Below are positions 5,277-39,655 of a DNA stretch of 40,264 nucleotides, piece after piece. Numbering within the stretch: the first letter of the stretch is position 1; every line of letters starts with the position of its first letter. The DNA lies in assembly GCA_030594815.1 (NCBI GenBank), contig JAUVEN010000012.1:1-40264 (forward strand), read 5' to 3'. The stretch comes from Gammaproteobacteria bacterium (GTDB lineage Bacteria; Pseudomonadota; Gammaproteobacteria; UBA6429; Thiohalophilaceae). The notes below the pieces were generated by a model. The model was not told the DNA's origin and made no database searches. It saw only the letters and a list, made by a program, of their open reading frames with translations. Both the position numbers and the translations under genes were made by a program.

Positions 5277-5465
5277 TTGTTGGCTCCGTCATGGACGACC
5301 TGAGCAAAGCGAAGAAGTGCTGATGCGACCTAAGCAACGCGAAGTAGTACCTGATGAACTGCGCAGTTTGCAGTTCTGAGGTAAAACGCGCAGCGGTTCT
5401 ACAGTGCTTCTTGAGCCCACCTACAAATTTTATGTAGGTGGGCTCAAGCGCAGCGGAGCCAACAA
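5277..5465. repeat. Palindromic composite repeat B1 (L module then S module)
   Basis: Intergenic element in the nei-ubiT gap. The outermost 12 bp, TTGTTGGCTCCG (5277-5288) and CGGAGCCAACAA (5454-5465), are perfect inverted repeats. It consists of a 148-bp L module (5278-5425), a 7-bp spacer and a 32-bp S module (5433-5464). S runs TGTAGGTGGGCTC ... GAGCCAACA. L is S inverted with roughly 115 bp inserted. The insert has two tandem units beginning CGACCT(G/A)AGCA, and a GAACTGC...GCAGTTC dyad. A second copy lies at 35176-35364 with the modules in the opposite order. No ORF of note is seen. Confidence 0.85.
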
Positions 5466-6099: not shown

Positions 6100-6228
6100 T
6101 GTAGGTCAGCCTTCAGGCTGACGCAGCGTTCGTTAACCGTATAATTTATTGTGTGAAGGGTATGTTTGGGTAATCGATTGGAGTTGTGGTTGTTTTTATA
6201 TTAGCGTCAGCCTGAAGGCTGACCTACA
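6100..6228. repeat. MITE-like element A1 with perfect 25-bp terminal inverted repeats
   Basis: The arms at 6100-6124 (begins TGTAGGTCAGCCTTCAGGCT) and 6204-6228 (ends GGCTGACCTACA) are exact reverse complements over 25 bp and enclose 79 bp. Each arm also contains its own 8-bp hairpin (GTCAGCCT/AGGCTGAC, loop TC). It fills the gap between the convergent stops of ubiT (6091) and ubiV (6236). No target-site duplication is obvious. The same arm motif recurs at 17573-17670. Confidence 0.88.
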
Positions 6229-11418: not shown

Positions 11419-11567
11419 CCACCAAGGACACCAAGACAAAACATTTAAACCACGGGGGACACGGGGAGCACAGGGAAACATTTTTAATTTTTAACCCCCG
11501 TGTTCTCCGTGTCCCCCGTGGTTTTGTATATATTTTCTTGGAGTTCTTTGTGTCCTTGGTGGCTATA
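11414..11567. repeat. Nested palindromic element D1 between tsaD and plsY
   Basis: The outer arms, TATAGCCACCAAGGACAC (11414-11431) and its exact reverse complement ending at 11567, give 18 perfect pairs. An inner pair, ACCACGGGGGACACGG near 11449 and its mirror ending near 11522, gives a second stem around an AT-rich loop. It lies between convergent tsaD and plsY (stop at 11572) and even contains the tsaD stop codon. A weaker relative is at 25329-25490. Confidence 0.85.
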
Positions 11568-17572: not shown

Positions 17573-17670
17573 ACACCGGCCTGAAGGCTGACCTATAAAA
17601 TTCAAAATAAATGAGTATTATGTAGGTCAGCTCCTTACCTACGTCCATGTAGGTAAAGAGCTGACCTACA
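17573..17670. repeat. Palindromic repeats A2/A3 between the VanZ-like gene and rimO
   Basis: A degenerate arm CGGCCTGAAGGCTGACCTA (from about 17574) is followed by a strong hairpin at 17621-17670. The left arm 17621-17642 (begins TGTAGGTCAGCTCC) and right arm 17649-17670 (ends GAGCTGACCTACA) pair at 21 of 22 positions around a 6-base loop. The arms share TGTAGGTCAGC with element A1. The hairpin ends 6 bp before the rimO stop and separates convergent genes. Confidence 0.85.
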
Positions 17671-17676
17671 GACTAT

Positions 17677-25328: not shown

Positions 25329-25490
25329 ATAGCCACTAAGGAGAAGGTGAAACCGGAGGTTGAGAGACTGGTCTGGGCCACACAAAGAACACCAAGAAAA
25401 TATATAAAACTAAGAAATTAAACGACTGGGGTTACAGGGTTAATAATAATGTATTTTTCCTCTTGTCTTTCTTTGTGTTCTTCGTGGCCA
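25329..25490. repeat. Palindromic element D2 between the dehydrogenase and GGDEF-EAL genes
   Basis: GGCCACACAAAGAACACCAA (from 25376) mirrors a right arm ending ACTTCGTGGCC-like at 25489 (TTTGTGTTCTTCGTGGCC), with a 2-base indel. A vestigial outer piece ATAGCCACTAAGGA (25329-25342) resembles the outer arm of D1. It is degenerate compared with D1. It lies between convergent genes and ends 4 bp before the next stop codon. Confidence 0.7.
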
Positions 25491-35175: not shown

Positions 35176-35364
35176 TGTAGGTTGGGTTAAGCGTAGCGAA
35201 CCCAACATTATATATTTGTTGGGTTCGTCGCTAGCGACCTGAGCACAGCGAAGAAGTGCTGATGCGACCTAAGCAACGCGAAGTAGTACCTGATGAACTG
35301 CAGAGTTTGCAGTTCTGAGGTGAAACGCGCAGCGGTTCTACAGTGCTCCTTAACCCAACCTACA
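35176..35364. repeat. Palindromic composite repeat B2 (S module then L module)
   Basis: Second copy of the family seen at 5277-5465. The 32-bp S module (35176-35207, TGTAGGTTGGGTT ... AACCCAACA) precedes a 148-bp L module (35217-35364) after a 9-bp spacer. L2 and L1 agree at roughly 90 percent of positions by eye, without gaps. The ends TGTAGGTTGGGTTAAG and CTTAACCC-type AACCTACA pair. It lies upstream of the DsrE-like gene and downstream of moaA. Confidence 0.87.
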
Positions 35365-39578: not shown

Positions 39579-39655
39579 GTCATTCCGGTAAGTTTTAAAC
39601 CGGAATCCATGTAGTAATCTGAATTAGATTCTGGTTTAAAACTTACCGGAATGAC
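39579..39655. repeat. Palindromic repeat C2 inside the ccm operon
   Basis: The left arm 39579-39606 (GTCATTCCGGTAAGTTTTAA and eight more) and right arm 39628-39655 pair at 27 of 28 positions around 21 bases. The arms start with the same GTCATTCCGG as cluster C1. It sits 8 bp after the ccmC stop and 15 bp before ccmD, in one transcription unit, so a long hairpin would form in the message. Confidence 0.9.

Follow-up and report, generated by a model that had tools for sequence, protein, structure and literature searches.

Results

Two composite repeats in the window

The window, a stretch of 40,264 nt that makes up one contig (C82) of a gammaproteobacterial genome of 2.8 Mb in 162 contigs (G000), contains two copies of a composite repeat. 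Both are intergenic: copy 1 (5277-5465) lies downstream of an Fpg-like gene and copy 2 (35176-35364) downstream of a MoaA-like gene, both gene names being taken from reading of the sequence. An earlier note on this DNA had described each copy as a module L of 148 nt joined to a module S of 32 nt, in swapped order, and we reproduced the places of both copies and the lengths of their parts. The order is L-S in copy 1, where the GTAG ends lie inside, and S-L in copy 2, where they lie outside. Aligned over about 150-158 nt, the two L modules are 89-90% identical, in agreement with the about 90 percent given before; copy 1 has the stems GGCTC/GAGCC, copy 2 the stems GGGTT/AACCC.

We find that L is not a separate type of module, as had been proposed, but a second REP, here named Z, on the strand opposite to S. 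Read on the minus strand, L consists of GTAGG, stem, loop and stem, and some 110 nt of additional nested hairpin sequence, an independent repeat that we call the loop cargo, lie within its loop. In copy 1 the long Z-type REP occupies 5279-5424 on the minus strand, with its GTAGG end at 5424, the stem TGGGCTC/GAGCCAAC and a 126-nt loop, and the S-type REP follows at 5434-5463 on the plus strand (GTAGGTGG GCTC AAGCGCAGCG GAGC CAAC). The cargo (5295-5407, plus strand) is a conserved core whose start and end are split by a nested second module of 60 nt at 5324-5383 on the plus strand (GCGACCTAAGC...GCAGTTCTGAGGTA); it was delimited by matches of covariance model R1 at 5295-5320 and 5325-5407, and its boundaries are approximate. 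In copy 2 the S-type REP comes first, at 35177-35206 on the plus strand (GTAGGTTG GGTT AAGCGTAGCG AACC CAAC), followed on the minus strand by the long Z-type REP at 35218-35363, with its GTAGG end at 35363, the stem TTGGGTT/AACCCAA and again a 126-nt loop. The cargo of copy 2 (35234-35346, plus strand) is built as in copy 1, with equally approximate boundaries: R1 matches at 35234-35259 and 35264-35323, and both the end of the cargo and the nested 60-nt module (35263-35322, plus strand) were set by alignment to copy 1.

A genome-wide family of S and Z REPs

REP copies in G000 were gathered by searches and by reading of stretches. With copy 1 as query we obtained 60 local matches, and the head pattern GTAGGTNGNNNNAAG gave 105 hits over the 2.8 Mb and its reversed control 4, so the two copies in the window are not the only ones. 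An S unit measures 30 nt and consists of GTAGG, stem, a 10-nt loop and stem. Z units mostly measure 36 nt with a 16-nt loop (AAGGA......GACG), and longer loops occur at at least 11 places in G000, where whole units reach 88-90, 146, 180 or 210 nt; the window copies have the 146-nt form (148 by the earlier count). The nested 60-nt module is missing from the 88-90-nt Z elements, which skip query positions 48-107.

Both S and Z have a GTAGG head 5' of an imperfect palindrome of 20-50 nt, a range that the long Z units exceed through their loop cargo. The copies are many and dispersed, the two in the window being intergenic, and the stems of S and of Z form covarying subfamilies. As in BIMEs, the units alternate in orientation, in places in tandem: G000 has 54 S-Z neighbours, with the GTAG ends inside in 21 and outside in 33, and over three genomes they lie outside in 66 dimers and inside in 39. 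Same-strand S/Z neighbours within 40 nt were not seen in G000. Inverted S-Z pairs are abundant, most of the compared sites are common to the species, and no movement of a pair was seen. By this anatomy the copies are BIME-like pairs of two GTAG-tagged REPs, and we regard the REP/RAYT assignment as secure.

Alternating S/Z arrays are found at C89:8909-9466 and C41:12228-12418. Because S and Z alternate in such arrays, taking either neighbour of a unit gives L-S or S-L, and the swapped order needs no special event; it is mostly the phase of an alternating array. The swapped order had earlier been taken to suggest tandem or circular ancestors; the arrays bear out the tandem part, and no evidence was found for circular ones.

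RAYT transposase genes and their flanking repeats

Six Y1-type transposase genes are present in G000. One of them, at C38:404-1003, is an intact RAYT gene (NCBIfam NF047646, 188 bits). Among solved structures its product is closest to TnpAREP (4er8, E 2.7e-40), in an alignment that covers the HIH and Tyr regions. An S unit and a broken Z head lie upstream of the gene and S and Z units downstream, the flanking arrangement of a REPtron, and the suggestion that the repeats resemble REP/BIME-type elements with a RayT-like transposase thereby gained a concrete gene. A second RAYT gene (C131, L033) is flanked by GTAGGTCAGACTTTAGTCTGAC repeats. In REPtrons one transposase goes with one REP family (PMC3733652), and the flanking of the C38 gene by S/Z and of the C131 gene by GTAGGTCAGACTTTAGTCTGAC indicates the same relation here. 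From these flanks and from the literature we infer that RAYT seeded the S and Z REPs, which presumes an active transposase. The ortholog in the sister genome G001 (L241, G001:C38:454-1017) has two stop codons and its REPs remain, and a RAYT gene was not found in the draft genomes G004 and G005, both of which have S/Z REPs.

Two further GTAG-related observations concern other families. A second family of GTAG-tagged palindromes (GTAGGTCAGNCT..AGNCTGAC) has members in the window (6100-6228 and 17579-17675) and also flanks the C131 RAYT gene, and a third, possibly broken RAYT gene (L036, G000:C159) is flanked by REP sequence of the GTAGCCCGGATGAAGTG... type. We considered the other RAYT genes as owners of the core in the Z loops and rejected them, as none has the core in its flanks.

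Stem covariation

The 4-nt arms are perfectly complementary in 51 of 53 S units and 56 of 61 Z units of G000; arms dealt at random gave 20.6 (maximum 30) for S and 27.1 (maximum 37) for Z. Over three genomes, with each distinct sequence counted once, pairing holds in 93% of stem cells, and the double-changed cells number 54 for S and 81 for Z against shuffle maxima of 24 and 33 and values of 1-4 for slid pairings, counts that overstate the number of events since copies related by descent are not independent. Covariation extends to two inner pairs of the Z loop (A-T/G-C and C-G/T-A). The arms thus do not vary independently. The stem shared by S and L, on which the earlier note had based the matching of arms, is real in copies 1 and 2 and fails as a rule of the family: S-L stem identity within a dimer was found in 8 of 54 S-Z dimers in G000 and in 16 of 105 over three genomes. 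The general rule is the pairing of arms inside each single unit.

There are 25 mismatched stems with a neighbouring REP, and 16 of them combine two known stem types; in 10 of these 16, at least one arm equals the stem of the neighbour. Most of these half-converted stems differ by one base, and many could be explained by single mutations. Mismatched stems with one unique base exist too.

Inversion in place at orthologous sites

The sister genomes G001 and G004 were compared with G000 at orthologous sites. At the site of copy 2, the dimer of G001 is the reverse complement of that in the window: 57 bp are 100% identical on the opposite strand between collinear flanks of 87-90% identity, and the spacer reads CATTATATATTT vs AAATATATAATG. 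At the site of copy 1, G001 has the orientation of the window, while the dimer of G004 runs the other way (56 bp at 96%; spacer ATAAAATTT vs AAATTTTAT). At the C86 site the spacer alone is reversed, and a further inversion, at C68, was called from alignment scores alone. The inverted arms measure 12-16 bp, far below read length, which makes a simple assembly error unlikely, with the reservation that the genomes are drafts. A reversed segment of about 283 bp (G000:C56 vs G004:C6) was rejected as a REP-arm inversion because its bounds fall in another inverted repeat.

The window itself has inverted repeats at 11447-11524 and 25380-25409 (AACCACGGGGGACACGGGG.../ACACAAAGAACACCAAG...), and a similar long one bounds the C56 inversion. 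A further inverted repeat at 39579-39655, with 29-nt arms that are 97% complementary and stand 19 nt apart (GTCATTCCGGTAAG...), looks like dispersed hairpins.

Template switching between short inverted repeats has been described to give two products, homogenised arms and inverted spacers, with inversion reported where the arms exceed 9 bp (PMC8604942). We consider template switching the likely cause of both the matching arms and the inversions seen here, as far as sequence comparison can tell. An alternative is that the hairpin is kept by selection, for recognition of single-stranded DNA by RAYT or for a role in transcripts, through compensatory mutations, the inversions being rare accidents of recombination. 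The conserved GTAGG heads and loop edges would fit this alternative, as would the reported use of both the GTAG motif and the stem by TnpAREP (PMC8266576), and mismatched stems with one unique base are expected of its intermediates. By itself, however, selection explains neither the reverse-complement spacers at orthologous sites nor the half-converted stems that carry the neighbour's stem type, and we hold it to be a reasonable but weaker candidate. The earlier note had left selection and a copying mechanism side by side as reasons for the pairing; the in-place inversions together with the half-converted stems favor copying, and selection for hairpins can act on top of template switching.

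The inversions and swapped orders could also be products of the transposase, if RAYT cut out dimers and rejoined them in either orientation. In favour of this, a RAYT gene is present with repeats on both sides. Inversions are also seen, however, between species in which RAYT is decayed or was not found, one of them has a non-REP repeat at its bounds, and the flanks show no disturbance, which together make rejoining by RAYT unlikely.

Cargo in the loops of resident Z units

In the comparisons among G000, G001 and G004 we find cargo in at least one genome at ten orthologous Z sites (copy 1, copy 2, C86, C8, C13, C114, C128, C129, C151 and G004:C4/G001:C286). At nine of the ten it is present in one species and missing in a sister; only at C128 do both genomes have it, and there the sizes differ. 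In two sister genomes the Z unit at the site of copy 1 measures 36 nt, and in G001 that at the site of copy 2 has this length too and is inverted. Site-specific stems are unchanged around the cargo (GTCGG/CCGAC at C129, GATGGATCC at C114), which means that the REP was already in place when cargo came or went. The history may have begun with cargo, followed by repeated precise loss; loss alone would need repeated, precise events at many sites.

The core of the cargo is about 56 nt long, RCGACCTGAGC..AGCGAAGAAGTGCTGAATGAAACNCG..CGNGGTTCTACAGTGC (alignment A1), and modules are nested inside it, one of 60 nt and another of about 60 nt. Its consensus fold has two hairpins, with double changes in 5 of 16 pairs and two G-U pairs kept. 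The other strand of the core has GTAG followed by a short hairpin, so that the core is itself REP-like. With the covariance model we find the core in 15 of 369 gammaproteobacterial genomes from at least nine families, often in several copies and mostly outside any REP. In G006 and G007, sister species without S REPs, related cores stand alone. The core had no match in plasmid, phage and viral collections, and a literature search with its sequence returned unrelated papers only.

This independence of the core in other genera is what could speak for L as a distinct non-autonomous element, of the IS200/IS605 or another kind, with a REP-like end acquired by chance. The ends of L are, however, those of the Z REP, which in most places is 36 nt long and has these stem types and this GTAGG head, and Z units of 36 nt without cargo stand at orthologous sites, which contradicts such an origin; we consider it extremely improbable. 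Alternatively, L could be a gene for a structured non-coding RNA or a cis-regulatory RNA. Copy 1 folds as a single strand far better than shuffled sequences (z = -9.5 as DNA and -8.95 as RNA), as does copy 2 (z = -8.4 as RNA), and the G-U pairs kept in the core would suit an RNA. REP hairpins fold in any case, though, the window has no Rfam match at or above the gathering score, and orthologous sites next to the same genes differ in whether they have L, all of which makes an RNA function very unlikely as the explanation of L.

By reading of sequences, all 23 cores of at least 70 bits in G000, G001 and G004 lie between Z arms, intact or degenerate. Of 40 stretches outside the genus that matched the core, not all of which are true cores, 4 came up to the 95% level set by random flanks and none to the 99% level; a universal 'loop-seeking' property of the core is not upheld, as cores there do not generally lie in hairpin loops. 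One case in another family (L291 of G133, near 1490-1570) has a core relative lodged in the loop of another, widespread REP, GTAGCCCGGAT...ATCCGGG, which suggests a second, independent entry.

Relatives of the core were also seen in other settings. In L293 (868-2019, minus strand) an insert near 1503-1555 lies in frame in an rlmN-like gene and adds about 17 amino acids, and L299 has a core-like stretch in a similar gene context. In L300 (near 1401-1560) and L294 (near 1503-1605), from other gammaproteobacterial families, core relatives stand head-to-tail with a period of about 51 nt.

Discussion

Two explanations, selection for the hairpin and gene conversion, have been offered for how REP arms stay complementary as their stems drift. 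Three related genomes here allow each dimer to be set beside its counterparts at orthologous sites, and the half-converted stems and flips point to copying between inverted arms.

Taken as a whole, we consider it probable that RAYT-seeded REP pairs, arms and flips made by template switching, and a separate cargo event account for these repeats. RAYT would seed and amplify REPs through single-stranded hairpins. Later, DNA polymerase would switch templates between inverted arms and copy one arm onto the other, so that stems stay paired, and the same switching would flip whatever lies between well-matching arms. The cargo would enter or leave resident Z loops separately, presumably by insertion, by short conversion from another Z copy or by deletion of the hairpin. 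Two findings weigh against this account: REPs are kept where RAYT has decayed (G001) or was not found (G004 and G005, draft genomes), and the inversion at C56 is bounded by a non-REP repeat.

REP loops can thus gain or lose a second, unrelated repeat and the REP is kept, which makes insertion into loops testable. More speculatively, REP loops could be docking sites for short, gene-less mobile hairpin cassettes that enter the loop of a REP already in place, in a fixed orientation, and can be stacked within each other. We regard this reading as rather doubtful; if true, REPs would offer other hairpin elements a safe place to land throughout the gammaproteobacteria.

In the open-licence literature we found no prior report of REP inversion by template switching or of REP dimers inverted in place, nor of a dispersed repeat in REP loops that some orthologous sites have and others lack. 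The nearest precedent for the former is template switching in yeast coding genes (PMC8604942), which shares arm homogenisation and spacer inversion; the present case concerns bacterial REP dimers and is inferred from three genomes. For the latter, REPs are known as targets of IS insertion (PMC1525189), likewise foreign DNA inside REP sequences, whereas the insert described here is a short gene-less hairpin repeat that sits in the loop and always in one orientation. Di Nocera and colleagues have described REPs within longer palindromes and degenerate REPs composite with other hairpins. REPINs, in which two inverted REPs form one replicating unit (PMC3116915), also consist of inverted REP pairs, and the 66 dimers with GTAG outside resemble them, but 39 S-Z dimers here have GTAG inside.

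With REPtrons the system shares a RAYT gene that has its REPs on both sides. The closest likeness is to the GTAG-tagged REPs and BIMEs with RAYT, such as the y-z1/z2 BIMEs of E. coli, which have the same GTAG head, imperfect palindrome and alternating arrays. In E. coli too, two REP types of unlike loop length, y and z, are paired in inverse orientation in BIMEs (PMC8266576, PMC3733652). Unlike in E. coli, the stem sequences are their own, the Z loops hold about 50-170 nt of nested hairpin sequence, and whole dimers are inverted in place between species. In conclusion, the class of repeat is already known, and the loop cargo and the flipping in place are a variant of that class.
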